From the NCBI GenBank assembly GCA_020721445.1, contig DYMU01000018.1:1-61788 (forward strand): a stretch of DNA of 61,788 nt, read 5' to 3'. The DNA comes from Gemmobacter nectariphilus. GTDB taxonomy: Bacteria; Pseudomonadota; Alphaproteobacteria; Rhodobacterales; Rhodobacteraceae. Both the position numbers and the translations under genes were made by a program. The notes under the pieces were generated by a model. It was not told the origin of the DNA, searched no databases, and worked only from the letters and a program-made list of their open reading frames with translations. This document shows positions 10,691-52,279 of the stretch, in pieces. Position 1 is the first letter of the stretch; each line of letters begins with the position of its first letter.

Positions 10691-12598
10691 TTACTTCCGC
10701 TTGTTTTCGCCCAAATCCTCGAAGTCGGCATCGACGATATCTTCGTCAACGTCGCGCGGACGGTCCGGGTCGGCCCCTTCGCCTTCGGACTGGGTCGCCT
10801 TGTAGATGGCTTCGCCCAGCTTCATCGCGGCTTCGGTCAGGTTCTGGATCCCCGAGCGGATCTTGCCGGCGTCCTCGCCTTTGAGGGCTTCCTCCAGCGG
10901 CTGCATGGCAAGCTCGATCGCTTCGACGGTGGTCGGGTCCACCTTGTCGGAATGCTCGGCCAGCGACTTCTTGGTCGAGTGCAGCAGGCTTTCACCCTGA
11001 TTGCGGGTTTCCACCAGCTCGCGGCGTTCCTTGTCGGCTTCGGCATTGGCCTCGGCGTCGCGCACCATCTTTTCGATGTCTTCATCCGACAAGCCGCCCG
11101 AGGCCTGGATGGTGATCGCCTGTTCCTTGTTGGTGCCCTTGTCCTTGGCCTTGACCGACACGATGCCGTTGGCGTCGATGTCGAACGTCACCTCGATCTG
11201 AGGCAGACCGCGCGGGGCGGGCGGAATGTTTTCAAGGTTGAACTGGCCAAGCATCTTGTTGTCGGCGGCCATTTCGCGTTCGCCCTGGAACACCCGGATC
11301 GTCACGGCGTTCTGGTTGTCTTCGGCAGTCGAGAAGATCTGCGACTTCTTGGTCGGGATCGTGGTGTTGCGGTCGATCAGACGGGTGAACACGCCACCCA
11401 GCGTCTCGATGCCCAAGGACAGCGGGGTCACGTCCAGCAGGACCACGTCCTTGACGTCGCCTTGCAACACGCCGGCCTGGATAGCGGCACCAGCGGCCAC
11501 AACCTCATCCGGGTTCACGCCCTTGTGGGGTTCCTTGCCGAAGAACTTGGTAACTTCCTCCACGACGCGCGGCATGCGGGTCATGCCACCGACCAGAACC
11601 ACCTCGTCAATGTCGCCAACCGTTAGGCCAGCGTCTTTCAACGCGGCATGGCAAGGCTTCATGGAGCGCTTGATCAGGTCGTCAACCAAGGATTCCAGCT
11701 TGGCGCGGGTCAGCTTGACCACAAGGTGCAGCGGCTGGCCGGTGTTGCGGTCCATGCTGATGAACGGCTGGTTGATTTCGGTCTGGCTGGCCGACGACAG
11801 TTCGATCTTGGCCTTTTCGGCGGCCTCTTTCAGGCGCTGAAGGGCCATCTTGTCCAAGGTCAGGTCAACGCCATGCTCTTTCTTGAACTCATCCGCCAAG
11901 TAATTGACGATCCGCATGTCAAAGTCTTCACCGCCAAGGAAGGTATCGCCGTTGGTGGATTTGACCTCAAACAGACCGTCGTCGATTTCCAGAATGGTGA
12001 TGTCGAAAGTGCCGCCGCCAAGGTCATAGACTGCGATGGTGCGGGCTTCTTTCTTGTCCAGACCATAGGCCAATGCAGCAGCCGTCGGTTCGTTGATGAT
12101 GCGCAGCACCTCAAGACCCGCGATCTTGCCGGCGTCCTTGGTTGCCTGACGCTGGGCGTCGTTGAAATAGGCAGGCACCGTTATCACGGCTTGGGTGACG
12201 GTTTCGCCCAAGTAAGCCTCGGCGGTTTCCTTCATCTTTTGCAGGATGAAGGCAGACACCTGGCTGGGCGAATACTTGTCACCCCGCACTTCAACCCAAG
12301 CGTCGCCGTTGCCGCCGTTGACGATCTTGTAGGGCATGTTCTTTTGGTCTTTCAGAATGATCGGGTCGTCAAAACGACGTCCGATCAAGCGCTTGACCGC
12401 GAAGATGGTGTTCGATGCGTTGGTGACGGCCTGCCGCTTGGCGGCCTGACCAACAAGGCGCTCATTTTCCGTGAACGCGACAATAGACGGCGTGGTGCGC
12501 GCGCCTTCCGAATTTTCGATCACGCGCGGTTGCGACCCATCCATGATGGCGACGCAAGAGTTTGTGGTTCCAAGGTCGATACCGATGACTTTGGCCAT
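10691..12598 (-). CDS. dnaK: Chaperone protein DnaK (Hsp70)
   Basis: The protein has 635 residues, the usual length. The ATPase domain begins with [16 protein letters not shown] and contains the phosphate-binding segment [15 protein letters not shown] and [13 protein letters not shown]. The substrate-binding domain follows with [20 protein letters not shown]. The tail ends with an acidic [12 protein letters not shown] segment. It folds client proteins with DnaJ and GrpE. GrpE is not in the window. A candidate heat-shock sigma factor promoter lies upstream at 12705-12736. Confidence 0.98.
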
Positions 12599-12704
12599 GT
12601 TTTGATCCCTTTCTACAGGCGATGGTCTTGGCTTGGGCCCAATGTGGCACCCGTGCCCATGGAGCGTGCGGTGAAATCGTGTGTTCCGAATTACCGTTGC
12701 CAGC

Positions 12705-12736
12705 CGTATATAGGTGGCGGGCTTTTGGGCTGCAAC
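12705..12736 (-). promoter_or_regulatory. Candidate sigma-32 (RpoH) promoter of dnaK
   Basis: Read on the minus strand, CCTATATACG (12705-12714) fits the alphaproteobacterial RpoH -10 pattern CYTATNTNNG exactly. A GTTG (12733-12736) lies 18 bases upstream and matches CTTG at three of four positions. It is 107 bases from the dnaK start, consistent with a heat-shock gene. Confidence 0.5.
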
Positions 12737-12880
12737 AGGGTCAGCGCGCGCAGTGTTGCTAATTTTTTACATGCGTGCCCTTTGATGCTGTCGACCCAAC
12801 CTTGCCCCCGATCGCGACCGGCGCAGGAAACGCGGCGCCGGGGCGCTCGGTTGTTGCTGTTCGTTTCCGAAAAAAGGGAC

Positions 12881-14011
12881 ATGACGATGCTTTATGTGGA
12901 TATTCCGACCAAGGCGCAGATCGACAGCCTGATTGCGGCAAGGGGCGATGCGCTGGTGTCATTCTTCATTCCAACCACACCAGAAACGCAACATATCGGG
13001 CTAGCGCGCACCCTGTTGGGGAACCTGCTGAAAGATGCAGAAGCGCAGCTTGAGGCGGTGGGCACCGCCAAGCGGACGATCTGGCCGATTGCCGAACAGG
13101 TCAACGATCTGATCGACGACACTGATTTCTGGGCCAAGCAGGCCAACAGCCTTGCGATTTTCGTCAGCCCGGACCGGATGCGCACCTTCCGTCTGCCGAA
13201 CCACCTGACCGAAATGGTTCAAGTCGGTGATCGCTATTTCATCAAGCCGTTGCTGCGCGCGGTTTCCCAGCAGAACCATGCCTTTGTGCTGGCGCTGGCC
13301 GAAAACGAGGTGCGGCTGGTTGAGGTGTTTGCCGATCTGCCCCCACACGAGGTGCGCGTGCCTGATATGCCGAAAGATGCCGCTTCGGCCAGTGGCACGG
13401 CGAATGTGAATTCGCGCAGCTACTCCAAGCGGATTGGCGGGTCCGAAGGGCAGAACGTCTTGCTGCGCGCCTATTGCCGCAAGATTGACACCGCCCTGCG
13501 CCCGGTTCTGGCCGGCCGGCACGAACCGCTGATTGTGGCTGCCACGGAACCGCTGCTTTCGATGTTCCGCTCGGTCACGACCCACGACGCGGTCGCCGAT
13601 GAGGCGATCAAGACCAGCCCGGTGCGGATGACCCCGGCAGAGCTGGCAACCGAGGCGCGCCCGATTCTGGACGCGGTGCAGGCCCGTATGCTGGCAGCCC
13701 TGCATGAACGCTTTGAAGCACGGTTGGGTGAAGGCCGGTCCCTGACCGATGTGGCAGATGTCGCCAAAGCCGCCACATTCGGGGCAGTGGAAACCCTGCT
13801 GGTCGATATCGACGAAGTGGTGCCGGGCACGGTGGATGAAAAAACCGGGGCAGTGACCTTTGACAAGGAATCGACGGCGGCAAATCTGGGTGTTGTGGAT
13901 GAAATTGCGTCTCGGGTGATCGCATCTGGCGGAATGGTGGTTGCCGTGCGCAAGGACGACATTCCCGGCAAAGGCTCGCTTGCCGCTATCCTGCGCTACG
14001 CGCAGCTTTGA
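12881..14011 (+). CDS. eRF1-like (baeRF family) protein
   Basis: The start is the ATG at 12881 (MTMLYVDIPTKAQIDSL) with AAAGGGA just upstream, giving 376 residues. The open frame continues far upstream only because it crosses dnaK antisense. The N-terminal region has SFFIPTTPETQHIGLARTLL and a middle region FVLALAENEVRLVEVF typical of bacterial archaeo-eukaryotic release-factor homologues. The C-terminal ASRVIASGGMVVAVRKDDIP and LAAILRY resembles the L7Ae-like third domain of eRF1. Such proteins are proposed to act in ribosome rescue or translation quality control, not canonical termination. It is divergent from dnaK. The family call is from pattern memory and the exact subfamily is uncertain. 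Confidence 0.7.
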   Translation: MTMLYVDIPTKAQIDSLIAARGDALVSFFIPTTPETQHIGLARTLLGNLLKDAEAQLEAVGTAKRTIWPIAEQVNDLIDDTDFWAKQANSLAIFVSPDRMRTFRLPNHLTEMVQVGDRYFIKPLLRAVSQQNHAFVLALAENEVRLVEVFADLPPHEVRVPDMPKDAASASGTANVNSRSYSKRIGGSEGQNVLLRAYCRKIDTALRPVLAGRHEPLIVAATEPLLSMFRSVTTHDAVADEAIKTSPVRMTPAELATEARPILDAVQARMLAALHERFEARLGEGRSLTDVADVAKAATFGAVETLLVDIDEVVPGTVDEKTGAVTFDKESTAANLGVVDEIASRVIASGGMVVAVRKDDIPGKGSLAAILRYAQL

Positions 14012-37069: not shown

Positions 37070-38059
37070 TCAAACCGGCGCGTCAAAGGCTGCGACCTGA
37101 CCAAGCGGGCTGGTGCTGCCTTGTGTCGCGGCGCCGATGCTGGGCAGGAATGATCCGTTCAGCCGCAGCACGGTCTTTGCAATCGTCGCCGCAGCCGGCT
37201 GCAACGGGCGGCGGGTGGAATGAACCAGAAACCAGAACCGCTCGATCGGCAGTTGCGGCGCGTTCAGCGTGGTCAAAAGGCCCATGCGCAATTCATCCGC
37301 CACGGTGTGAAGCGACAGGAAGGCGATTCCAAGGCCCGCAATCACCGCCTGCTTGATCGTTTCATTGGTGCCCATTTCCACCTGCTTGAACGGTCGCCCG
37401 TCGTTGATCCGATCCAGATAGCGGGTCATCAGGATACGGGTGCCCGAGCCTTCCTCGCGGCAGATAAACACCTCACGCGCGAAATCGGCAGCAGACAGTG
37501 CCGAGCGTCCCGCAAGCGGGTGATCGGGCGCGGCAACAATGCCATGCGGGTGCGGGCCGATCAGGTGATCAGCGATATCGGGGTCGCGCGGCGGTCGGCC
37601 CATGACGACCAGATCGAATCGCATCCGTTCCATTTCACGCAGAATCTCTTCGCGGTTGCCGACATGCAGGACGATGTCGATGTCGGGGTGGATGGTGTTC
37701 AGCATCTTGACGAGTCGCGGGGCGAAATACTTGCCGGTCGAGACCACGCCGAACATCACCCGCCCGGCGAATCCCTTGCCGATGGCATCAACGCGCGACA
37801 TGGCCTGCGACAAAGTCGCGTCCATCTGCGCGGCGGCGTCCATCAGCAACATCCCGGCGGCCGTCAGGTCTGACCCGGCCCCATCACTGTCGCGGCGCAG
37901 CAGGGCGGTTCCGGCTTCGGCCTCTAACAGCTTGATCTGATTGTGGATTGCCGGGGTTGTCAGCCCAAGCGCGCGACCTGCGGCGGTCAGTGACCCATGC
38001 TGCGCCACGGCGCGCAAGGCCCGTAACTGTCGCAAAGTGATGGCGGCGATCGTTGGCAT
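37070..38059 (-). CDS. cbbR: LysR-type regulator CbbR
   Basis: The protein has 329 residues. The N-terminal HTH (LRALRAVAQHGSLTAAGRAL and HNQIKLLEAEAGTALLRR) is followed by an effector domain with GVVSTGKYFAPRLVKMLNTI and CREEGSGTRILM, features of CbbR. It is divergent from cbbF with 99 bases between them, the classical layout in which CbbR binds the shared region and senses Calvin-cycle metabolites such as RuBP. It should control the whole downstream operon. Confidence 0.92.
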   Translation of the reverse strand: MPTIAAITLRQLRALRAVAQHGSLTAAGRALGLTTPAIHNQIKLLEAEAGTALLRRDSDGAGSDLTAAGMLLMDAAAQMDATLSQAMSRVDAIGKGFAGRVMFGVVSTGKYFAPRLVKMLNTIHPDIDIVLHVGNREEILREMERMRFDLVVMGRPPRDPDIADHLIGPHPHGIVAAPDHPLAGRSALSAADFAREVFICREEGSGTRILMTRYLDRINDGRPFKQVEMGTNETIKQAVIAGLGIAFLSLHTVADELRMGLLTTLNAPQLPIERFWFLVHSTRRPLQPAAATIAKTVLRLNGSFLPSIGAATQGSTSPLGQVAAFDAPV

Positions 38060-38104
38060 TCAAGTATTCTTAATGGACCTACAAGTTTTTTCAATTCTGA
38101 ATGA
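38060..38104 (+). promoter_or_regulatory. Candidate CbbR operator in the cbbR-cbbF gap
   Basis: Two LysR-type half-site pairs are seen: TCA-N7-TTA (38060-38072) and TCA-N8-TGA (38091-38104), matching the TNA-N7/8-TNA pattern described for CbbR. The gap is AT-rich. A strong GGGAGGGG ribosome-binding site for cbbF lies at 38147-38154. Confidence 0.4.
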
Positions 38105-38158
38105 TGAATATCTTCGCCATGGTGCCACACAACAGATATCGGCCTTGGGAGGGGCACC

Positions 38159-39163
38159 ATGAAGGACGCACCAATCCTGCCCGGCGAACATATTCCGCCG
38201 GCTCTTTACCCGCTCATGCTTGAAATGGCCAACGGGGCGATCGAACTCGCCAAGCGCATTTCGCGCAACGGTCTGGACGAATCGCTGGGGGCCGCCGCTG
38301 GCGTCAACACCGATGGCGACGCGCAAAAGGCGCTGGACGTGATCGCGGACGATCTGTTCCTGACGGCAGCGCGCCGGGCCAAGATCGCCTACTTCGCATC
38401 GGAAGAGCAAGAACACGCGGTCACCCTGCTGGAAGACGGGGCCTATGCCCTGGCAATCGACCCGCTGGACGGGTCGTCGAACATCGACACAAACGTGTCG
38501 GTGGGCACGATCTTTGCGATCTTCCCCGCCGCTGCCTCCTCCGATGCAAGCTTTCTGCGCCCGATGGCGGATCTGGTGGGCGGCGGCTACTTCATCTATG
38601 GCCCGCAGACCGCGCTTCTGGTGACCTTTGGCGAAGGCGTGCAGCGCTATGTGCTGGACACCGACCAGCAAAAGTTTTTCCTGACCGAAGCCCGGGTGAC
38701 CATCCCCGAAGAGTCGAACGAGTTTGCCGTGAACGCGTCGAACTATCGGCACTGGCCCAAACCGATCCGCGCCTATGTCGATGATTGCGTTGCCGGGGCC
38801 GAAGGGCCGCGCGGAAAGAACTTCAACATGCGCTGGATCGCGTCTTTGGTGGCGGAAACCCACCGGATTCTGGCCCGTGGCGGCATCTTCCTGTATCCGG
38901 CAGATGACCGGAAGGGGTATGAGCGCGGCCGTCTGCGGCTGCTTTACGAATGTGGTCCGATCGCGATGCTGATCACCCAGGCGGGTGGCGGGGCCACCGA
39001 TGGCGTTGACCCGGTTCTGGGCCAGACCGCCACGGGGCTGCACCAGCGCACCCCGCTGATCTTCGGCAGCAAAGGCAAGGTTGCCCGTGTGACCGCCTAT
39101 CATGACATGACCGATGACGAAACCAATGCGCTGTTCGGCAAGCGCGGCCTGTTCCGGAGCTAA
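38159..39163 (+). CDS. cbbF: Fructose-1,6-bisphosphatase (class 1), Calvin-cycle type
   Basis: The protein has 334 residues. The metal and phosphate site is [20 protein letters not shown], followed by [20 protein letters not shown] and [20 protein letters not shown]. It hydrolyses fructose bisphosphate, and in autotrophs usually also sedoheptulose bisphosphate, to regenerate RuBP. It is the first gene of the cbb operon and is followed after 6 bases by cbbP. Confidence 0.97.
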
Positions 39164-39169
39164 GACAAA

Positions 39170-40042
39170 ATGAGCAAGAAGTTTCCCATCATCTCGGTCA
39201 CCGGGTCGTCTGGTGCTGGCACCAGCACGGTGAAGCATACCTTTGACCAGATCTTCCGTCGTGAAGGCATCAAGGCCGTTTCGATTGAAGGCGACGCCTT
39301 TCACAAATACAACCGCGCCGACATGAAAGAACAGCTTTCGCAACGCTATGCCGCGGGTGATTTTGGTTTTTCGCATTTTTCATATGAAGCCAATGAGTTG
39401 ACCGAACTGGAACGGGTGTTCCGCGAATATGGCGAGACCGGCAAGGGCCGCACCCGCACCTATGTGCATGATGAAGGCGAAGCCGCGAAAACCGGCGTCG
39501 CACCGGGCAATTTCACCGCCTGGGCGCCGTTCGAGGACGGGTCGGACCTGCTCTTTTACGAAGGCCTGCATGGCGCGGTGGTGAACGATGAGGTGAACCT
39601 GTCCAAGCTCGCCGATCTGAAGATTGGCGTGGTTCCGGTGATCAACCTTGAATGGATCCAGAAGATCCACCGTGACCGGGCGCAGCGTGGCTATACCACC
39701 GAAGCGGTGACCGATGTGATCCTGCGCCGGATGCACGCCTATGTGCATTGCATCGTGCCGCAGTTCACCGAAACCGACATCAACTTTCAGCGGGTGCCGG
39801 TTGTCGATACCTCGAACCCGTTCATCTCGCGCTCGATCCCGACGCCGGACGAAAGTCTTGTGGTCATCCGCTTCAAGAACCCGCGCGGCATCGACTTCCC
39901 TTATCTGACCTCGATGATCTACGGCTCATGGATGAGCCGGGCCAATTCGATCGTCATTCCGGGCAACAAGATGGACTTGGCGATGCAACTGATCCTGACC
40001 CCGCTGATCGAGCGGTTGGTCCGTGAAGCCAAGCGCGCCTGA
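39170..40042 (+). CDS. cbbP: Phosphoribulokinase
   Basis: The protein has 290 residues, the octameric bacterial type. The P-loop is GSSGAGTST (12-20). SIEGDAFHKYNR holds the ribulose-phosphate site, and LLFYEGLHGAVV the Walker B region. It makes RuBP from ribulose-5-phosphate, the committed step before RubisCO. It lies between cbbF and cbbT with short spacers. Confidence 0.98.
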   Translation: MSKKFPIISVTGSSGAGTSTVKHTFDQIFRREGIKAVSIEGDAFHKYNRADMKEQLSQRYAAGDFGFSHFSYEANELTELERVFREYGETGKGRTRTYVHDEGEAAKTGVAPGNFTAWAPFEDGSDLLFYEGLHGAVVNDEVNLSKLADLKIGVVPVINLEWIQKIHRDRAQRGYTTEAVTDVILRRMHAYVHCIVPQFTETDINFQRVPVVDTSNPFISRSIPTPDESLVVIRFKNPRGIDFPYLTSMIYGSWMSRANSIVIPGNKMDLAMQLILTPLIERLVREAKRA

Positions 40043-40054
40043 AGGGGATAGGTC

Positions 40055-42031
40055 ATGAACACGCAGATTCAGGCGGCTGACGAACGCACCATGGCCAATG
40101 CCATCCGTGCGCTCGCGATGGATGCGGTGCAAAAGGCCAACTCTGGCCACCCCGGCATGCCTATGGGCATGGCCGATGTGGCGACGGTGTTGTTCAACCG
40201 CTTCATCATGGTTGACCCGGCCGATGATCAATGGCCGAACCGTGACCGCTTTGTGTTGTCGGCCGGTCATGGGTCGATGCTGGTTTATGCCCTGAACCAC
40301 CTGCTGGGCTACAGCGACATGGACATGGACCAGTTGCGCGCCTTCCGCCAGTTGGGCAGCCGCACGGCAGGGCACCCGGAATACGGCCATGCCAAGGGCA
40401 TTGAGGTGACCACCGGCCCGCTGGGGCAGGGCATTTCCACCGCCGTCGGCATGGCTTTGGCCGAACGCATGGCAGCGGCGCGCTTCCCCGAACTGGTGGA
40501 CCATTACACCTATGTGATCGCAGGCGACGGCTGCCTGATGGAAGGCATGAGCCACGAGGCGATTGATCTGGCCGGCCATCTTGGTCTTGGCCGTATGATC
40601 GTGATGTGGGACGACAACAAGATCACCATCGACGGCGACACCAGCCTTGCCACCTCGACCGACCAGATGGCGCGCTTTGCCGCCAGCGGTTGGCATGTGG
40701 TGGCGGTCGATGGGCATGACATGGAGGCCGTTGCCAAAGCGATTACCGCGGCGCGCCAAGACCCGCGCCCGAGCCTGATCGCCTGCCGCACCATCATCGG
40801 CTTTGGCGCGCCGAACAAGCAGGGCAGCCATGATGTGCATGGCGCGCCCTTGGGCGATGCCGAAATCGCCGCCGCCCGCGCCTTTCTTGGGTGGGAGCAT
40901 GCGCCGTTCGAAATTCCCGAAGCCGTCTATGCTGCCTGGCACAAGGTGGCCGCCCGTGGTGCCGCGGCGCACAAGGACTGGGCCGCGCGTCTGGCCGCCT
41001 CGGCGGACCGTGCCGCTTTCGACGCCGCCGTCGCTTGCGATCCGGCGCCGCTGACCCCGGCCATGGCTGCCTACAAGGCGCAACTTCTGGCCGACAAGCC
41101 AAAGGTTGCCACCCGCAAGGCCAGCGAAATGGCTTTGGGCGTGGTCAACGGGACGCTGTCCTTTGTGGTTGGCGGATCTGCCGACCTGACCGGGTCGAAC
41201 CTGACCAAGACCAGGGGGCAGAAGTCTGTCACCAAGGCTGATTATTCGGGCAGCTACATTCACTACGGCATCCGCGAACATGGCATGGCGGCTGCGATGA
41301 ACGGCATCGCACTGCACGGCATGTTCAAGCCCTATGGCGGCACCTTCATGGCCTTTGCCGACTATTGCCGCCCGGCGATCCGCCTGTCGGCGCTGATGGG
41401 TGTGCCGGTGACCTATGTCATGACGCATGACAGCATTGGCCTTGGCGAAGATGGCCCGACGCACCAGCCTGTCGAACACCTGGCATCGTTGCGCGCCATT
41501 CCGAACCTGAACGTCATCCGCCCCTGCGATGCGGTGGAAACCGCCGAAGCCTGGGAAATGGCGATGGCCTCGACCTGCACGCCGACGCTGTTGGTGCTGT
41601 CGCGCCAGAACCTGCCGCTGGTGCGCAACGATGTCTCGGAAAACCTGACCGCCAAAGGTGCATACCTGCTGCGTGACGTCGCCGACCGCGACCTGACGCT
41701 GATCGCGACAGGCTCTGAGATCGAGATTGCGATCACCGCCGCCGATGCTCTGGGCGCGCAAGGCATGAAAGTGGCCGTGGTTTCGGCCCCTTGCTTCGAA
41801 GCCTTCGCGGCGCAACCCGAAGCCTATCGCCTTTCGGTGCTGGGAACTGCGCCACGGATCGGGATCGAAGCCGCCATTCAGCAAGGCTGGGACCTGTTCC
41901 TGCGCCACAAAGATGGCTTTGTCGGCATGACAGGCTTTGGTGCCTCGGCACCGGCCCCTGCGCTTTACAAACATTTCAATATCACCGCCGAGGCCGTCGC
42001 AGAATTGGCCCAGAAACTGACGAGGGACTGA
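40055..42031 (+). CDS. cbbT: Transketolase
   Basis: The protein has 658 residues. Thiamine diphosphate binding is shown by [20 protein letters not shown] and the [13 protein letters not shown] region; the second domain has [17 protein letters not shown] and the middle [19 protein letters not shown]. It moves two-carbon units to rebuild pentose phosphates. Its stop is one base from the cbbG start. Confidence 0.98.
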
Positions 42032-42032
42032 C

Positions 42033-43034
42033 ATGACTGTTAAAGTAGCCATCAACGGCTTTGGCCGTATCGGTCGCAACGTGCTGCGTGCGATTGTGGA
42101 ATCGGGCCGCACCGACATTGAAGTTGTCGCGATCAACGACCTTGGTCCGGTGGAAACCAACGCGCACCTGATGCGGTTCGACTCGGTCCATGGCCGGTTC
42201 CCCGGCACCGTGACAACCGGCGAAGACTGGATCGACGTGGGTCGTGGCAAGATCAAGGTCACGGCGATCCGCGACCCGAAAGACCTGCCTTGGGCGGGTG
42301 TCGATATCGCCATGGAATGCACCGGCATTTTCGTGACCAAGGAAAAGGCGCTGGCGCATCTTTCTAACGGGTCAAAGCGGGTTCTGGTGTCGGCCCCCTG
42401 CGATGGCGCGGACAAGACGATTGTGTTTGGCGTGAACCACGCCACGCTGACCGCAGATGACATGGTCGTGTCGAACGCCTCGTGCACCACAAACTGCCTG
42501 TCGCCTGTCGCTGCCGTTCTGCAAGCGACCGTCGGCATCGAAAAGGGGATGATGACCACTATCCATTCCTACACCGGCGACCAGCCCACGCTGGATACCA
42601 TGCACAAGGATCTGTATCGCGGTCGGGCTGCGGCCTTGTCGATGATCCCCACCAGCACCGGCGCTGCCAAGGCCGTGGGTCTGGTGCTGCCGGAACTGAA
42701 GGGCAAGCTTGACGGCTTTGCCATCCGCGTGCCGACGCCAAACGTGTCGGTCGTGGACCTGAAGTTCATCGCCAAGCGCGCCACGAGCGTGGAAGAAATC
42801 AACGCCGCGATCAAGGCCGCCGCCGATGGCCCGATGAAGGGCATCCTTGGCTATACCGAGTTCAAGAATGTGTCGATGGACTTCAACCATGATCCGCATT
42901 CGTCGGTGTTCCACATGGACCAGACCAAGGTGATGGACGGCACGCTGTGTTCGGTGCTGTCGTGGTATGACAACGAATGGGGTTTCTCGAACCGCATGTC
43001 CGATACCGCCGTCGCGATGGGCAAGCTGCTATGA
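42033..43034 (+). CDS. cbbG: Glyceraldehyde-3-phosphate dehydrogenase
   Basis: The protein has 333 residues. The nucleotide-binding start [19 protein letters not shown] is followed by the catalytic Cys in [37 protein letters not shown] is the usual C-terminus. It reduces 1,3-bisphosphoglycerate in the Calvin cycle. Its stop overlaps the pgk start (ATGA). Confidence 0.97.
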
Positions 43035-44221
43035 TCACCTCTGTCACCGATCTGCCCATTGCGGGCAAGCGACTGGTGGTTCGGGCCGACCTGAACGTGC
43101 CGATGGAAGGGGGCCGCGTTTCCGACGCGACCCGCATCACCCGCTTTGCCGACGGGATGAAACCGCTCTTGGCGCAGGGCGCATCGCTGGTGATCCTGTC
43201 GCATTTCGGGCGGCCCAAAGGGGCGGACATGGCGTTTTCGCTGCGTCATATCCGTGATGATCTGAGCCGCGCACTTGGGTGCCCGGTCGCCTTTACGGCG
43301 CTGGACAAGGCCGCCGAGGCGGCCGCCGATCTGAAACCGGGGCAGGTTCTGCTGGTCGAAAACATCCGCTTTGAAGCGGGTGAGGAAAAGAACGATGTGG
43401 CACTTGCCGGGCAACTGGCCGCGCTCGGTGACATCTATGTGAACGATGCGTTTTCTTGTGCGCACCGGGCGCATGCCAGCACGGCGGCGATTGCCGGGCT
43501 GATGCCTGCGACCGCCGGCCCGCTGATGATGGAAGAAGTGGCCGCCCTGACCGCCGCCCTGGAAAAACCGCAACGCCCAAGTGTGGCGATTGTCGGCGGG
43601 GCCAAGGTCAGCTCGAAAATCGCGGTTCTGAAACATCTGGTCACAAAGGTCGATCATGTGATCGTCGGTGGTGGCATGGCCAACACCTTCCTGTTCGCCG
43701 ATGGCGCGCCGATGGGTAAATCCTTGCACGAGGCCGATCAGGTGGCGACCGTGGCTGAAATCCGCGACATTGCCGCCAAGCATGGCTGCACCATCCACCT
43801 GCCCGCCGATGTGGTGATTGCGCGTGAGTTCAAGGCCCATGCCGCCAGCGAAACCGTCGGCGCGCATGAATGTTCGGAGGATGCGATGATCCTGGATGCC
43901 GGGCCAAAGGCGGTTGCCGCGTTTTCCGAGGTGCTTTCGGGATCGAAGACCATTCTGTGGAACGGGCCCTTGGGCGCGTTCGAGATGCAGCCGTTCGATG
44001 CCGCGACCGTGGCCTTGGCCCGCACCGCCGCTGACCTGACCCGCGCGGGATTGTGCGTGTCGGTGGCAGGCGGTGGTGACACCGTGGCTGCGCTGAATGC
44101 CGCCGGGGTGGCGGATCAGTTTACCTATGTCTCCACCGCCGGTGGGGCTTTCCTTGAATGGCTGGAGGGGCGCGCCCTTCCGGGGATCGCTGCGCTGATG
44201 CGTGACGGTCAGGCAGCGTAA
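43031..44221 (+). CDS. pgk: Phosphoglycerate kinase
   Basis: The ATG at 43031 overlaps the cbbG stop by four bases, giving 396 residues. The N-terminal [20 protein letters not shown] and [10 protein letters not shown], the central [19 protein letters not shown] and the C-terminal [20 protein letters not shown] are all diagnostic. It makes 1,3-bisphosphoglycerate from 3-phosphoglycerate. Having pgk inside the operon completes the reductive branch with cbbG. Confidence 0.97.
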
Positions 44222-44232
44222 CGGAGAACATC

Positions 44233-45297
44233 ATGGCGCTTATTACCCTACGGCAACTTCTGGATCACGCGGCAGAGCACAGCTATGGCGTGCCCGCCTT
44301 CAACATCAACAACATGGAACAGGGCCTGGCGATCATGGAAGCGGCGAAAGCCGTGGACGCGCCGGTGATCATTCAGGCGTCGCGCGGCGCGCGCAACTAC
44401 GCAAATGACATCATGCTGGCCAAGATGATCGAAGCCCTCGCCCAGATCTACCCGGACGTGCCTTTGTGCATGCACCAGGACCACGGCAACAACGAAGCCA
44501 CCTGCATGTCGGCCATCAAGCACGGCTTTACCTCTGTGATGATGGACGGCAGCCTGATGGGCGACGCCAAGACCCCGGCGGATTACGACTATAACGTCGA
44601 CATCACCGAAAGGGTCTCGCGGATGGCGCATTGGGTTGGCGCGTCGGTCGAAGGCGAGCTTGGGGTTCTGGGCAGCCTTGAAACCGGCGAATCCGAGGCC
44701 GAGGATGGCCACGGTGCCGTTGGCAAGCTTGACCACAGCCAGTTGCTGACCGACCCCGATCAGGCCGTTGACTTCGTGAAGAAGACCAAGGTTGATGCCT
44801 TGGCCATCGCCTGCGGCACCAGCCACGGCGCCTACAAGTTCAGCCGCAAGCCCACGGGCGACATTCTGGCCATGAACGTGATCGAAGCGATCCACCAGAA
44901 ACTGCCGAACACCCATCTTGTGATGCACGGATCATCCAGCGTGCCGCAGGAATTGCAGGACATCATCAACGAGTTTGGCGGCGCGATGCCACAAACCTTT
45001 GGTGTGCCGGTCGAAGAGATTGTGCGCGGCATCAAGATGGGTGTGCGCAAGGTCAACATCGACACCGATTGCCGCATGGCGATGACCGGGCAGTTCCGCA
45101 GGATCGCGATGCAAGACCCCAAAGAGTTTGACCCGCGCAAGTTCTTGAAGCCCGCAATGGACGCGATGCGCGACCTGTGCCGGCTGCGTCTGGAAGCCTT
45201 CGGCACCGCTGGTCACGGCTCGAAGATCAAGGTCATCCCGATGGATGACATGGCCAAGCGTTACGCCAGCGGCGCGCTTGATCCGACCGTGAAGTAA
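44233..45297 (+). CDS. cbbA: Class II fructose-bisphosphate aldolase
   Basis: The protein has 354 residues of the Calvin-cycle class II subtype. The zinc and catalytic region is [20 protein letters not shown], followed by [30 protein letters not shown] and [10 protein letters not shown]. It makes fructose and sedoheptulose bisphosphates. A short GGCC-TTT-CGGCC-like hairpin lies in the 39-base gap before cbbM. Confidence 0.97.
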
Positions 45298-45336
45298 TAC
45301 GGCCTTTCGGCCACCCGTTCTTGAGAGAAAACTCAA

Positions 45337-46713
45337 ATGGATCAATCTGATCGCTACGCCAACCTTGCGTTGAAGGAAGCCGACTTGATGGCGGGCGGCC
45401 GGCATGTGCTGGTGGCCTACATCATGAAACCGAAAGCCGGTTTCGGCAGCTTTCTGGAAACGGCGGCGCATTTTGCCGCTGAAAGCAGCACCGGCACCAA
45501 CGTCGAAGTGTCAACCACCGACGATTTCACCCGCAGCGTCGATGCGCTGGTCTATGAAATCGACGAAGCCTCTGGCCTGATGAAAATCGCCTACCCGGTC
45601 GAGTTGTTTGACCACAACATCACCGACGGCCGGGCGATGATCTGCTCGTTCCTGACGCTGACCATCGGCAACAATCAGGGCATGGGCGACGTCGAATACG
45701 CCAAGATGCACGATTTCTGGGTGCCGCCGGTGTATCTGAGCGCCTTTGACGGCCCGTCCACCACCATCGCCGATCTTTGGCGCGTGCTGGGCCGGCCGCA
45801 TGTGGATGGCGGCTTCATCGTCGGCACCATCATCAAGCCGAAGCTGGGCCTGCGTCCGCAGCCGTTTGCCGATGCCTGCTATGATTTCTGGCTGGGCGGC
45901 GACTTCATCAAGAACGACGAACCGCAGGGCAACCAAAGCTTTGCGCCGATGCGCGAAACCGTGAAACTGGTGCGCGACGCGATGTGCCGCGCGCAAGACA
46001 AGACCGGGATGGCCAAGCTGTTCTCGTTCAACATCACCGCGGATGATCCGTGGGAAATGGTCGCCCGTGGCGAGTTCATCCTGGAAACCTTTGGCGAAAA
46101 CGCCCGCCATGTGGCTTTCCTGGTCGATGGCTATGTCACCGGCCCGGCGGCGATCACCACCGCGCGTCGCCGCTTCCCCGGCCAATACCTGCACTATCAC
46201 CGTGCGGGCCATGGCGCCGTGACCAGCCCACAGTCGATGCGCGGCTACACCGCCTTCGTGCTGTCGAAAATGGCGCGTCTGCAAGGCGCAAGCGGCATCC
46301 ACACCGGCACCATGAGCTTTGGCAAGATGGAGGGTGAGGCCTCTGACAAGCTGATGGCTTTCATGATCACCGATGACGTGGCGATGGGGCCGTATTTCAA
46401 GCAGGAATGGCAGGGCATGAACCCGACCACCCCGATCATTTCGGGCGGGATGAACGCGTTGCGGATGCCGGGGTTCTTCAAGAACCTGGGCCATTCCAAC
46501 CTGATCATGACCGCAGGCGGCGGCGCCTTCGGTCACATCGACGGCGCGATTGCGGGGGCAACCTCGCTGCGTCAGGCCGAACAGTGCTGGAAAGCCGGGG
46601 CTGACCCGGTCGAGTTCGCCAAGTCGCACAAGGAATTCGCCCGCGCCTTCGAAAGCTTCCCCGGAGATGCAGACAAGCTGTATCCGGGCTGGCGGACAGC
46701 GTTGGGAGTCTAA
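45337..46713 (+). CDS. cbbM: Form II ribulose-bisphosphate carboxylase
   Basis: The protein has 458 residues, typical of the small-subunit-free dimer form. Active-site Lys167 and Lys169 are in [12 protein letters not shown], the carbamylated Lys192 with Asp194 and Glu195 in [14 protein letters not shown], His in YHRAGHGAV, and the loop 6 lysine in [11 protein letters not shown]. Form II enzymes have low CO2/O2 discrimination and work best at high CO2 and low O2. It lies directly upstream of form I cbbL in the same direction, an unusual pairing. Confidence 0.98.
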
Positions 46714-46750
46714 AAAAACTGGCACCGCCGGTCTATGCCCCGCGATCAAG

Positions 46751-46779
46751 GCTGTCCCAAGAGAAAATCGAGGGACAGC
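46751..46779 (+). other. Hairpin in the cbbM-cbbL spacer
   Basis: GCTGTCCC (46751-46758) and GGGACAGC (46772-46779) form a perfect 8-base stem with a 13-base purine-rich loop. It starts 38 bases after the cbbM stop and ends 66 bases before cbbL. No long T-run follows, so it is more likely an mRNA processing or stabilising element, or a partial attenuator, than a full terminator. Confidence 0.55.
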
Positions 46780-46785
46780 TTCTGA

Positions 46786-48312
<1,527 letters not shown>

Positions 48313-48325
48313 GGAGACCAGACAG

Positions 48326-48715
48326 ATGCGTATCACTCAAGGCTGCTTTTCCTTTCTGCCCGATCTGACCGACGAGCAGATCAGCAAGCAGGTCGAATAT
48401 TGCCTGTCGCGCGGCTGGGCCATCGGGGTGGAATACACCGATGACCCGCACCCGCGGAACACCTTCTGGGAGATGTTCGGCAATCCGATGTTCGACCTGA
48501 AGGATCCCAAGGGCGTGATGATAGAGCTGGATGCCTGCCGCAAGCAGTTTCCGGACCACTACATCCGATTCAACGCCTTTGACTCGACCCGCGGATTTGA
48601 GACCGTGACGATGAGCTTTATCGTCAACCGTCCCAAGGTTGAGCCGACCCTCCGGATGGAACGGATGGAAGTGGACGGCCGGTCCGTCCGCTATACCCAC
48701 TACACGGTGCGCTGA
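48326..48715 (+). CDS. cbbS: Form I RubisCO small subunit
   Basis: The ATG at 48326 has AAGGAG upstream, giving 129 residues beginning MRITQGCFSFLPDLTDEQI. FWEMFGNPMFDLKDPKGVM and the C-terminal extension ending MEVDGRSVRYTHYTVR are typical of red-type small subunits, whose extra beta-hairpin lines the central pore. It is required for form I activity. Confidence 0.97.
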   Translation: MRITQGCFSFLPDLTDEQISKQVEYCLSRGWAIGVEYTDDPHPRNTFWEMFGNPMFDLKDPKGVMIELDACRKQFPDHYIRFNAFDSTRGFETVTMSFIVNRPKVEPTLRMERMEVDGRSVRYTHYTVR

Positions 48716-48732
48716 CTCCCGCGCATCCTGCA

Positions 48733-48771
48733 GCACCGGCCGGGCTTGGGCCAAATTGGCCCGGCCGGTGC
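48733..48771 (+). other. Strong hairpin in the cbbS-cbbX spacer
   Basis: GCACCGGCCGGGC (48733-48745) and GCCCGGCCGGTGC (48759-48771) form a perfect 13-base stem with a 13-base loop. It begins 18 bases after the cbbS stop and ends 39 bases before cbbX. There is no T-run. It could protect the cbbLS mRNA 3' end and lower expression of the genes after it. Confidence 0.65.
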
Positions 48772-48809
48772 GACCCCCATCCCCATTCAAAACATGACAG
48801 GAGACGTTC

Positions 48810-49721
48810 ATGCAGGCTGACGCCCCGAAGACCATTAACCTGCACGCCGAATATGAGGCTTCTGGCGCCAAGGAAGTGCTGGACGAGCTGGACAATGAAC
48901 TGATCGGTCTTGCCCCGGTCAAGGAACGAATCCGCGAAACCGCTGCCTTGCTGCTGGTGGACCGTGCCCGCAAGACCCTGGGTCTGGCACATCAGACACC
49001 AACCCTGCACATGAGCTTTACCGGCAACCCCGGCACCGGCAAGACCACCGTTGCGCTGAAAATGGCCGGGCTGTTGCACCGCCTTGGCTATGTCCGCAAG
49101 GGGCACCTTGTGTCGGTCACCCGCGACGATCTGGTCGGACAATACATCGGCCACACCGCGCCCAAGACCAAGGAAGTGCTGAAAAAGGCCATGGGAGGCG
49201 TGCTGTTCATCGACGAGGCCTATTACCTCTATCGCCCTGACAATGAACGGGACTATGGCCAGGAGGCAATCGAAATCCTGTTGCAGATCATGGAAAACAA
49301 CCGTGACGATCTGGTGGTTATCCTTGCCGGATACGCCGACCGGATGGACCTGTTCTTTCAGTCGAACCCCGGCTTTAGGTCGCGCATCGCGCATCACATC
49401 GAGTTTCCGAACTATACCAGCAGCGAGTTGCATCACATTGCCAGCCACATGCTGACCGATCAGCACTATACCCTGACCGAAGGCGCAAAGGCCGCCTTGG
49501 CCGAGTATATCGAGTTGCGCCGCAACCAGCCGCATTTCGCCAATGCCCGGTCGATCCGCAACGCATTGGACCGCGCAAGGTTGCGTCAGGCTAACCGCTT
49601 GTTCACCGAAGGCGGCATCATCGACGCGGCCACCCTGTCTACCATCGAAGAAAGTGATATCAGGGCAAGCCGGGTGTTCCGCGGCGGCTTGGATTCTGAA
49701 CGCAAAGGGGATTCCGAATGA
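48810..49721 (+). CDS. cbbX: Red-type RubisCO activase CbbX
   Basis: The protein has 303 residues of the AAA+ family. Walker A is GNPGTGKTT (72-80), Walker [11 protein letters not shown] (131-140), and the arginine-finger region is [15 protein letters not shown]. It removes tight-binding sugar phosphates from red-type form I RubisCO by pulling on the large-subunit C-terminus. Its place after cbbLS is diagnostic. Its stop overlaps the next gene (ATGA). Confidence 0.97.
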
Positions 49722-50407
49722 CCTTCTCTCGCAAGATCAAGATCGCACCGTCGATCCTGTCGGCTGATTTCGCCAACTTCGGGCTGGAGTGCGAGGCGAT
49801 CGAAGCGCAGGGCTGCGACTGGGTGCATGTCGATGTGATGGACGGGCATTTCGTGCCGAACATCACCTTTGGCCCCGCCACCTGCGCCGCCATCCGCCCG
49901 CATATCAAGGGCGTGATGGACGTTCACCTGATGATCGCGCCGGTCGACCCCTATATCGAGGCCTTCGCCAAGGCCGGTGCCGATGTGATCTCGTTCCACC
50001 CCGAAGCAGGCGCGCACAGCCATCGCACCTTGCAGGCGATCCGCGCGACGGGCGCAAAGGCGGGCCTGGCCATCAATCCGGGGACCGGGCTCGATTCCAT
50101 CGCCTACCTGCTTGACCTGTGCGATCTGGTCTGCATCATGACGGTGAACCCCGGCTTTGGCGGACAGAAGTTCATCCACAGCCAGGTCGATAAGGTGCGT
50201 GCCCTGCGCGCCATGATCGGCGACCGCCCGATCCACATCGAGATTGACGGCGGCGTGACGCCGGAAACCGCGCCCTTGGTGGCGGCTGCCGGGGCCGACG
50301 TGCTGGTGGCTGGCTCAGCTGTGTTCAAGGGCGGTTCGGTCAAGAACCCCGCGCCCTATGGCGAAAACATCCGCGCCATCCGCGCAGCGGCAGAAGCGGC
50401 TGTCTGA
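49718..50407 (+). CDS. cbbE: Ribulose-phosphate 3-epimerase
   Basis: The protein has 229 residues of the TIM-barrel family. Motifs are [55 protein letters not shown] and [14 protein letters not shown]. It interconverts xylulose- and ribulose-5-phosphate before phosphoribulokinase. It is coupled to cbbX upstream (ATGA) and to the thioredoxin-like gene downstream (TGATG). Confidence 0.97.
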
Positions 50408-50946
50408 TGGCGGTCTTGACCCCGGTGTGCGATTTCGGCTGGACAGCGCCCGATTTTGCGCTGCCCGGAACCGATGGCAAAACCTATGGCCTTGCTGATG
50501 TGGCCGGGCCAAAGGGCACGCTGATCATCTTCATGTGCAACCACTGCCCCTATGTAAAGGCAGTGTTGGACCGGATCATCCGTGATGCCACGGAACTGGC
50601 AGGGCATGGCATTGGCGTTGCGGCGATCAATTCCAACGATGGCGTAGCCTACCCCGACGACAGCTTTGCCGCGATGCAGGCCGTCGCTTTGCCCTTCCCC
50701 TATCTGCACGACGAAACCCAGGATGTTGCCCGCGCCTGGGGCGCCGCCTGCACGCCTGATTTCTTTGGCTTCAATGCCGCGGGCGCGTTGCAATACCGCG
50801 GGCGGCTGGATGCCAGTGGCAAGACCGCCGTCGAAGGCGCGACGCGTGAATTGTTTGACGCGATGGTTCAGGTGGCCGCCACCGGCCATGGGCCGCGCGA
50901 ACAGGTGCCCTCGATGGGCTGCTCGATCAAATGGAAGCCGGAATGA
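50407..50946 (+). CDS. Thioredoxin-fold (AhpC/TSA-type) protein in the cbb operon
   Basis: The protein has 179 residues of the peroxiredoxin/thioredoxin-like fold. It opens with APDFALPGTDGKTYGLADV, then a Cys44-x-x-Cys47 motif in FMCNHCPYVKAVLDR. DDSFAAMQAVALPFPYLHDE and ACTPDFFGFNAAG complete the fold. There is no signal peptide, so it is cytosolic. It overlaps cbbE by one base and cbbZ by four bases. A redox or peroxide-protective role tied to the Calvin cycle is inferred only from coupling; the substrate is unknown. Confidence 0.85.
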   Translation: MAVLTPVCDFGWTAPDFALPGTDGKTYGLADVAGPKGTLIIFMCNHCPYVKAVLDRIIRDATELAGHGIGVAAINSNDGVAYPDDSFAAMQAVALPFPYLHDETQDVARAWGAACTPDFFGFNAAGALQYRGRLDASGKTAVEGATRELFDAMVQVAATGHGPREQVPSMGCSIKWKPE

Positions 50947-51593
50947 ACATTGTTTTTGACCTTGACGGAACGCTGATCGACTCGGCCCCCGATATCCACG
51001 CCGCCGTTGCCAAGATGCTGGCAGATGAGGGGCGCGACGCGCTGGATCTGGTGACCATCACCTCGTTCATCGGCAATGGGCTGCCGAAACTGGTCGAGCG
51101 CGTGATCACCCGCGCCGGTATGGATCTGGCCGATCACCCGCGCCTGACGAAAGTCACCCTTGACCATTACAACGCCGCCTCGGCCGATCTGACCCGCCCC
51201 TATCCGGGGGTTGTGGCGGCGTTGTCAGCCTTGCAGGACGCCGGCCACCAGATGGCGGTCTGCACCAACAAACCCGTCGCCCCGGCGCGCGATATCCTGC
51301 GCGATCTTGGGCTGGAGGTGTTTTTCACCACCGTCGTCGGCGGCGACAGCCTGCCCGTCACCAAGCCCGACCCGGCCCCGCTGCACGCCTGTGTGGAGGC
51401 TTTGGGCGGCGGTGCCACGATCTATGTCGGCGACAGCGAAGTGGACGCCGCAACCGCAGCGGCGGCAAAGGTGCCGTTTGCCCTGTTCACCGAAGGCTAT
51501 CGCAAGACCCCGGTTGAAGAGCTGCCGCACGATGCCACGTTTTCGGACTTTCACGCGCTGCCGGCGCTGTTGAACGACATGGCCGAACGATGA
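50943..51593 (+). CDS. cbbZ: Phosphoglycolate phosphatase
   Basis: The ATG at 50943 overlaps the previous stop (ATGA), giving 216 residues. HAD-family motifs are FDLDGTLIDSAPDIHAAV (motif I Asp), VCTNKP (motif II Thr) and TKPDPAPLH with VGDSEVDAATA (motifs III and IV). It dephosphorylates 2-phosphoglycolate made by RubisCO oxygenase activity. It is coupled to cbbY by another ATGA overlap. Confidence 0.95.
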   Translation: MNIVFDLDGTLIDSAPDIHAAVAKMLADEGRDALDLVTITSFIGNGLPKLVERVITRAGMDLADHPRLTKVTLDHYNAASADLTRPYPGVVAALSALQDAGHQMAVCTNKPVAPARDILRDLGLEVFFTTVVGGDSLPVTKPDPAPLHACVEALGGGATIYVGDSEVDAATAAAAKVPFALFTEGYRKTPVEELPHDATFSDFHALPALLNDMAER

Positions 51594-52279
51594 ACAGCTT
51601 GCGCGCCCTGATCTTTGATGTCGATGGCACCTTGGCCGAAACCGAAGAAGCCCATCGTCAGGCCTTCAACGCGGTGTTTGCCGCGCATGGTCTGGCGTGG
51701 AACTGGTCGGTTGCGGATTATACCGCGCTGCTGCGGGTGACGGGCGGCAAGGAACGGATGAAGGCGCACCGCGATGCCCGCGGCGAAAGCCTGCCGGACG
51801 ATGCCACCATCGCCAGCATGCATCTGGAAAAGACCGATGCCTATGTCGCGCTGGTGGCCGGTGGCGGCTTGCAGCCGCGCAACGGGGTTGCCGGACTGAT
51901 GCAGGCCGCGCGGGAAGCCGGGTTGAAGCTGGCGATTGCCACCACCACCAGCCCGGCCAACGTCGATGCCCTGACCCGCGCCCTGTGGGGCCGGGCGGCG
52001 GCGGAATTGTTCGATGTGATCGCGGCGGGCGACGAGGTGGCGGCGAAAAAGCCCGCGCCGGACGTGTATCTGCTGGCCTTGCAGCGGCTTGGTCTGCCGC
52101 CGGAACAGGCGGTTGCCCTGGAAGACAGCGCGAACGGCATTCGCTCGGCCCGCGCGGCGGGGTTGCGGGTGGTTGTGACGCCATCAATCTTTACCGCGCA
52201 TGAAGACCATGCGGCCGCAAGCCTTGTGGTGCCCGATCTGACCGCCGTCACCTTGCCACGTCTTGCCGACCTGACCTGA
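51590..52279 (+). CDS. cbbY: HAD phosphatase CbbY
   Basis: The protein has 229 residues. Motifs are LIFDVDGTLAETEEAHRQAF, IATTTSPANVDALT, KKPAPDVYLLALQRLGLPPE and ALEDSANGIRSARAAG. CbbY-type enzymes dephosphorylate xylulose-1,5-bisphosphate, an inhibitor of red-type RubisCO, and so assist CbbX. It is the last gene clearly belonging to the cbb operon. Confidence 0.93.
   Translation: MNSLRALIFDVDGTLAETEEAHRQAFNAVFAAHGLAWNWSVADYTALLRVTGGKERMKAHRDARGESLPDDATIASMHLEKTDAYVALVAGGGLQPRNGVAGLMQAAREAGLKLAIATTTSPANVDALTRALWGRAAAELFDVIAAGDEVAAKKPAPDVYLLALQRLGLPPEQAVALEDSANGIRSARAAGLRVVVTPSIFTAHEDHAAASLVVPDLTAVTLPRLADLT

Follow-up and report, generated by a model that had tools for sequence, protein, structure and literature searches.

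A tandem of form II and red-type form I RubisCO genes in one cbb gene cluster of Gemmobacter nectariphilus, with signs of homologous exchange of cbbL-cbbS

In Rhodobacter (Cereibacter) sphaeroides, the genes for form I and form II RubisCO are carried in separate operons, and multiple RubisCO forms are reportedly the subject of Badger and Bek (2008). Here we describe a stretch of 61,788 nucleotides from Gemmobacter nectariphilus (assembly GCA_020721445.1, contig DYMU01000018.1, positions 1 to 61,788; hereafter the window), in which the form II gene cbbM lies directly upstream of the red-type form I genes cbbL, cbbS and cbbX within a single set of Calvin cycle (cbb) genes. This tandem is real and rare. 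It can be explained by processes already known, the insertion of a cassette and homologous exchange, in an operon of a familiar type; what is new is that they come together, with the form I enzyme swapped in place. We consider it likely that a form I cassette entered a form II operon, that cbbL-cbbS was exchanged later, and that a single CbbR-controlled message carries both enzymes in amounts set by stem-loops.

The closest precedent found is a 13-kb Thiomicrospira-like vent fragment that, according to excerpts of Bohnke and Perner (2017; PMC5506194), encodes both CbbLS and CbbM. Like the window, it holds both forms on a short stretch, but the excerpts give it two LysR regulators along with CbbQ/CbbO proteins. 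Acidithiobacillus ferrooxidans has a separate cbbMQO cluster with its own cbbR, as stated in a part of PMC2942843. Passages of PMC12999727 report form IA and form II in Phaeovulum vinaykumarii and make no mention of a shared operon; in the genome of this species (G266), the two forms are on different contigs. With respect to physiology, an excerpt of PMC4660213 describes form II as prevailing at high CO2 and form I at limiting CO2 in Hydrogenovibrio marinus and A. ferrooxidans. A literature search at the level of titles and starts of abstracts yielded no description of a cbbM-cbbL tandem operon in Rhodobacteraceae.

Rhodobacteraceae form II operons resemble the window up to cbbM. Those of Cereibacter azotoformans plasmid pORIO1 (one annotated F-P-T-G-A-M operon, in the genus of R. 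sphaeroides), Rhodobacter sp. SW2, Rhodobacter sp. Har01 and Fuscovulum blasticum have the same order with CbbM proteins 81-95% identical, although the window has an extra pgk. In these operons, cbbM is not followed by cbbL-cbbS-cbbX; SW2, Har01 and F. blasticum have cbbE as the first gene recognised behind it, and the next annotated gene in pORIO1 encodes an oxidoreductase. The red-type form I operons of genomes G400, G219, G401 and G230, with the order (F)-P-T-(G)-A-L-S-X-E, share the scaffold and carry L-S-X after cbbA, but unlike the window they lack cbbM in this slot. In Rhodoblastus sp. 17X3 (L076), in a Roseiarcus metagenome-assembled genome (MAG; L096) and in locus L060, whose CbbL is only 55% identical, cbbM is followed at a distance of 1.9-5.8 kb by a form I large-subunit gene. 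Unlike in the window, a cbbR in the opposite direction stands between the forms in all three, which therefore look like two regulated units. Locus L159 of genome G1227 also has both forms on a short stretch, separated by about 5 kb; a divergent cbbR accompanies each of them, and the CbbL of this locus is 57% identical to that of the window. In a further locus, L106, a form I gene lies about 11 kb from cbbM in the opposite direction.

The cbb region of the window comprises the following features (family model scores in bits, with the model cut-off where one applies):

37070-38059, minus strand: cbbR, LysR-type regulator (NF045990, 447.7 bits, just below the cut-off of 450)
38060-38158: cbbR-cbbF spacer, presumed promoter/operator
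38159-39163, plus strand: cbbF, class 1 fructose-bisphosphatase (NF006780, 416 bits, cut-off 358)
39170-40042, plus strand: cbbP, phosphoribulokinase (NF011997, 482 bits, cut-off 362)
40055-42031, plus strand: cbbT, transketolase (TIGR00232, 823 bits, cut-off 682)
42033-43034, plus strand: cbbG, glyceraldehyde-3-phosphate dehydrogenase (TIGR01534, 414 bits, cut-off 367)
43031-44221, plus strand: pgk/cbbK, phosphoglycerate kinase, its start overlapping the cbbG stop (sole NCBIfam match the kinase part of the bifunctional model NF010569, 424 bits, below the cut-off of 883)
44233-45297, plus strand: cbbA, class II fructose-bisphosphate aldolase (TIGR01521, 641 bits, cut-off 496)
45337-46713, plus strand: cbbM, form II RubisCO (NF010002, 869 bits, cut-off 489)
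46714-46845, plus strand: M-L spacer with a long hairpin (46720-46813 in the predicted fold)
46846-48312, plus strand: cbbL, red-type form I RubisCO large subunit (NF003252, 791 bits, cut-off 438; top solved match 5nv3)
48326-48715, plus strand: cbbS, form I small subunit (PF00101, 136 bits, cut-off 27)
48716-48809, plus strand: S-X spacer with a 14-bp hairpin and no T-run
48810-49721, plus strand: cbbX, red-type RubisCO activase (TIGR02880, 529 bits, cut-off 459; solved CbbX 3syk and 3zuh)
49718-50407, plus strand: cbbE/rpe, ribulose-phosphate 3-epimerase (TIGR01163, 274 bits, cut-off passed)
50407-50946, plus strand: AhpC/TSA (thioredoxin-like) protein (PF00578, 63 bits)
50931-51593, plus strand: cbbZ/gph, phosphoglycolate phosphatase (TIGR01449, 217 bits, cut-off 180)
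51590-52279, plus strand: cbbY, HAD hydrolase (solved CbbY 4uar, E 1.4e-67)

The plus-strand order is thus cbbF-P-T-G-pgk-A-M-L-S-X-E-(AhpC-like)-Z-Y, all as open frames, with cbbR divergent beside cbbF. Open frames, family models and solved structures confirm what a preliminary description made from the DNA alone had reported, namely cbbM directly upstream of cbbL-cbbS-cbbX in the same direction, amid F, P, T, G, pgk, A, E, Z and Y and next to a divergent cbbR. The nearest solved structures to CbbM (5hqm, a Rhodopseudomonas palustris/Rhodospirillum rubrum chimera, and 4lf1) place it in form II, and the contiguous cbbL, cbbS and cbbX identify a red-type form I (form IC) set. The order cbbR | F-P-T-G-A-M of the Rhodobacteraceae cbbII operon is present, with pgk between G and A; its usual continuation from cbbM to cbbE or to the operon end without form I genes is not, since L-S-X lie between. 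The product of cbbY is what we take to be a xylulose-1,5-bisphosphate phosphatase; no specific NCBIfam cut-off was passed among the best 25 matches listed for it. The genome (3.07 Mb, 53 contigs) yielded no RubisCO gene besides cbbM and cbbL in a PF00016 search. It has two adjacent Photo_RC genes, which would be pufL and pufM, a pair that makes the host a probable purple phototroph.

The nearest relative found is the Rhodobacteraceae MAG ZodW_Metabat.71 (genome G006, JAFGXY010000049.1; its locus is L039 below), whose CbbM is 99% identical. Its operon is collinear with that of the window, and the two sequences share 91.2% identity over a compared length of 21.4 kb, with the cbbL-cbbS patch described below excluded. 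An assembly chimera is an unlikely origin of the tandem, since this separately assembled MAG shares the M-L junction.

In order to gauge how rare the arrangement is, neighbours of cbbM were counted in named loci, of which there were 112, the best 80 being kept; those with less than 1.6 kb after cbbM, 11 in number, were dropped from the downstream count. Genes were recognised through the window's own proteins, so that unrelated genes in between would be missed. On this basis, the first recognised gene after cbbM in the remaining 69 loci is cbbE (59), cbbZ (5), cbbR (1), cbbL (1, which is L039) or none (3). The nearest recognised gene upstream (80 loci) is cbbA in 65, cbbP in six, cbbT in three and none in six. 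The preliminary description had proposed looking for cbbM next to cbbL in other genomes; an M-L order that is routine in the family is rejected by the single case in 69 loci and by genome surveys, which begin with 2 of 16 genomes in the genus. RubisCO forms in the surveys were assigned by bit score except where loci were fetched, and the family, order, class, phylum and relatives samples overlap. Among the matches listed for 394 family genomes, as well as for 390 of the order and 385 of the class, both forms are adjacent in the window genome only. Eight other genomes of the order sample have both forms, always on different contigs; in four of the five that were fetched (G066 being the exception), form I is 55-56% identical to that of the window and has its own cbbR adjacent. 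One more case, G1227, came from 398 phylum genomes, and a sample of 389 relatives showed the tandem in G000 and G006 only. Genus surveys around SW2 and G400 comprised one genome each, both already in other samples. Plasmid searches returned four Cereibacter records for cbbM (E <= 1e-60) and 119 records for cbbL (E <= 1e-100); a DNA search with the L039 cbbL also gave 119 records, the best being Paracoccus sp. TOH at 83.5%. Gene-by-gene inspection of these plasmid matches covered pORIO1 alone.

The history of the scaffold was approached with a quick tree in which 67 operons (48 form II, 17 form I and 2 with both) were represented by their concatenated F, P, T and A. Loci before L039 and seven duplicates were excluded, as were operons that lacked P or A, had two or fewer of F, P, T and A, or carried neither M nor L beside A; G did not enter the tree. 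Starred branches are those that are well supported. The window and L039 form a clade (100, starred) that joins the form II operons of Rhodobacter sp. Har01 and F. blasticum (99, starred); next out are SW2 (80, not starred) and then the form I operon of G400 (99, starred). Since the window scaffold nests with form II operons, the simplest account is the addition of a form I L-S-X cassette to a form II operon, with cbbM on one side and cbbE on the other, and this insertion point matches the usual neighbour pair. The insertion would date to the common ancestor of the window species and L039, as both share the M-L junction, and the source of the cassette would be related to G400. Of the interpretation offered in the preliminary description, two parts stand: the placing of form I into a form II operon, for which it had suggested such separate trees and which tree and gene order both favour, and the unusual character of the order.

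A second event is suggested by a sharply bounded region in which the two sister operons differ:

46937-48703: patch of about 1.77 kb, recombinant with respect to L039, that takes in most of cbbL and almost the whole of cbbS

Identity to L039 is 80.3% within these limits, compared with the 91.2% outside them. A change-point fit over 45337-49721 (cbbM to cbbX) gives 19.7% divergence in the patch versus 6.6% elsewhere (log-likelihood difference 84.7), with edge ranges of 46724-46961 for the start and 48682-48721 for the end. Silent divergence (dS) is 0.61 in cbbL and 1.07 in cbbS, versus 0.27 in cbbM, 0.30 in cbbX and 0.22 in cbbA, and amino-acid-changing divergence (dN) is 0.007 in cbbM and 0.11 in cbbL, the latter across the exchange. 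By CbbL identity, L039 is nearest to G400 (94.0%), and the window is nearest to G401, G230 and G219 (93.4-93.8%).

The CbbL tree was built from 39 rows, with four short duplicates and CbbL below 70% identity left out and identical proteins collapsed; approximately unbiased (AU) tests on CbbL used 29 rows, ten more distant rows being dropped. The careful CbbX tree omits two short duplicates, three near-duplicates and four distant rows. In the careful CbbL tree, L039 groups with G400 and G014 of its own genus (three rows, 100/98, starred). A CbbL clade of window and L039 is rejected (AU p 4.9e-7), as is one of window, L039 and G400 (p 2.7e-4), while CbbX pairs window and L039 (100/99, starred). 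Because sisterhood is rejected for CbbL while CbbX retains it, the comparison indicates that most of cbbL and nearly all of cbbS were replaced by homologous exchange in one of the two lineages. The window lineage was probably the recipient, since G400 is the closest by identity to L and S of L039 and to the CbbX proteins of the two species. The direction is weak because the placement of CbbX with G400 has support of 50/6 and a CbbX clade with the other donor group (window, L039, G401, G230 and G219) is not rejected (p 0.167), and the first 120 bases of cbbL show no clear fit to any clade. Further points count against this history: the window CbbL joins G401, G219 and G230 at only 83/79 (not starred), CbbS alone, which is too short, does not reject window plus L039 (AU p 0.185), and a quick CbbX tree puts window and L039 beside G136. 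The cbbE gene (49718-50407) is probably a second recombinant patch relative to L039; its dS of 0.62 is above that of most neighbours, and the window copy pairs with Phaeovulum veldkampii (97, starred).

These events fall on a scaffold that has changed its RubisCO often. In the fetched loci, Calvin operons of the family share the order cbbR | F-P-T-G-(K)-A-[slot]-E-...-Z-Y, in which the slot is normally filled by cbbM or by cbbL-S-X. The scaffold tree needs nine changes of slot label, and its starred branches force at least seven (form II) or at least six (form I). Single-gene trees force 6/6 changes (II/I) for T, 6/5 for R, 5/5 for A and 4/3 for F. The P (1/1) and E (2/1) trees speak the other way, in that they alone give no repeated slot changes, and they are too weakly resolved to inform on the matter. 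The Calvin operon of the family may thus be likened to a socket, in which form I and form II cassettes, each with its own 3' stem-loop, would be exchanged by homologous recombination through the conserved flanks, sometimes by way of a tandem. The window would then be a tandem caught in this state, with form I swapped again in place and the M:LS output set by the retained stem-loops under one CbbR. We advance this generalisation tentatively, as a proposal that has somewhat less than an even prospect of holding.

Repeated change of slot content, together with the finding of the tandem in two sister species only, would also suit a passing intermediate of RubisCO replacement, in which one form is on its way out and contributes little. 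We find this doubtful. Both forms are open, amino-acid-changing differences are far below silent ones in cbbM and in cbbL alike, and the tandem has been kept in both species, which are about 9% apart in the region.

How the two forms are expressed was addressed through the spacers. The A-M spacer is 39 bases and the M-L spacer 132 bases; no regulator gene lies between M and L, and specifically no second cbbR. From gene spacing, cbbF to cbbY would be transcribed as one operon. LysR-type sites are named as TNA-N7-TNA and T-N11-A in a part of PMC2942843. A single TNA-N7-TNA match, which could be a chance one, was found in the cbbR-cbbF spacer, at 38060, and none in the A-M, M-L or S-X spacers; a stricter scan for the T-N11-A palindrome found none in any of these four. 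A sigma-70 and terminator scan found nothing in the M-L spacer and is uninformative there, because it listed no promoter for cbbF either.

For the M-L spacer of the window, the predicted fold has an energy of -61 kcal/mol (z -6.41, equalled by 0 of 200 shuffles), and for the S-X region (48713-48809) one of -41.9 kcal/mol (z -2.95, 2 of 200). A repeat element was tried as the origin of the M-L hairpin and rejected, the 132-base spacer being single copy in the genome. Hairpins were then sought across loci by folding 70 bases from each stop codon, with G, pgk and E outside the test. Seven duplicates were excluded, and of the short loci before L039 only nine were kept. Hairpins with z < -2 follow cbbM in 44 of 83 loci and cbbS in 20 of 40, and are seen after cbbF in 1/70, cbbP in 2/79, cbbT in 4/73 and cbbX in 1/28. 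The window has z -4.04 after cbbM and -2.37 after cbbS in this test. A run of at least five T in the nine bases after the first stem was seen in only 1 of 83 cbbM loci and 1 of 40 cbbS loci, and most of these hairpins are therefore unlike ordinary terminators. By analogy, the stem-loops after cbbM and cbbS would be stabilising or processing elements; in the Rhodobacter capsulatus puf operon, intercistronic stem-loops stabilise or process RNA. Passages of PMC3997798 treat only the RNase E-like decay and translation of R. capsulatus puf. A search for literature on premature termination in cbb operons found nothing relevant.

Some observations weigh against such a role of the stem-loops. Hairpins of z < -2 also follow cbbA in 20 of 104 loci and cbbL in 8 of 37. 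The M-L spacer of L039 folds far less well (z -1.28, equalled by 23 of 200 shuffles); its predicted outer stem is retained. The 70-base values of L039 are z +0.86 after cbbM and -0.95 after cbbS, which puts it among the half of loci without a clear hairpin signal. In addition, Rho action or an unrecognised promoter may operate in the M-L spacer.

Because the window hairpin is very strong, the halves on either side of it may not be equally expressed. In another reading, there would be two head-to-tail units, with cbbR-FPTGKAM ending at the hairpin and cbbL-S-X-E and the following genes under separate control from their own promoter in the 132-base spacer. SW2 (L040), which has a G+C-rich hairpin with a T-run directly after cbbM, is in keeping with this arrangement; the window hairpin lacks a T-run, as do nearly all of the cbbM loci tested, the TNA-N7-TNA motif is missing from the M-L spacer, and the scan returned neither a terminator nor a sigma-70-like promoter there (although no promoter for cbbF either). 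We therefore regard two separate units as unlikely. By eye, the left arm of the SW2 hairpin resembles that of the window M-L hairpin, whose inner stem is longer. Vertical inheritance of the whole fused operon, with cbbL-cbbS merely evolving faster, would suit the collinearity of the two operons and the CbbS result, but it is highly improbable given that dS and dN both rise in L and S (and E) relative to M and X with sharp edges, and it is contradicted by the separate CbbL clades.

Insertion followed by exchange, with shared transcription, thus remains the account that we prefer. In the common ancestor of the window species and L039, an L-S-X cassette would have entered behind cbbM to give A-M-L-S-X-E, and in one lineage, probably that of the window, homologous exchange would later have overwritten most of cbbL and almost the whole of cbbS. 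Both enzymes would probably be on one message from a cbbR-controlled promoter. The stem-loops after cbbM and cbbS, probably RNA stabilisers, processing sites or attenuators, would set the relative amounts of CbbM, CbbLS and CbbX. An enzyme specific for CO2 and one of low specificity would then coexist in the cell, with their balance adjusted by RNA decay instead of by separate operons.

Other features of the window were noted in passing. The AhpC/TSA-like redox gene, absent from the preliminary description, sits between cbbE and cbbZ and has a homologue near cbbM in 36 of the 80 named loci. The first part of a 787-residue open reading frame (ORF) at 11648-14011 (plus strand) matches PF10712, and the second part matches baeRF release-factor-like domains; this ORF overlaps one on the minus strand at 10691-12598 that adjoins a DnaJ gene. 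PF10712 is presumably an antisense reading of dnaK, and probably only the second part of the ORF is a gene. Near the contig start, 3236-5707 (minus strand) encodes an 823-residue DUF5906 protein, which we would guess to be a phage- or plasmid-type replication gene.

With both RubisCO types in one naturally occurring operon, the setting of their ratio becomes directly testable, as does the way in which cells trade one type for the other or keep the two in balance. The swap of cbbL-cbbS, in an operon that is conserved elsewhere, would mean that RubisCO was replaced in place while its partners were retained. Horizontal mobility of RubisCO has long been noted, and the slot pattern in the Calvin operons of this family would provide a concrete route for it.

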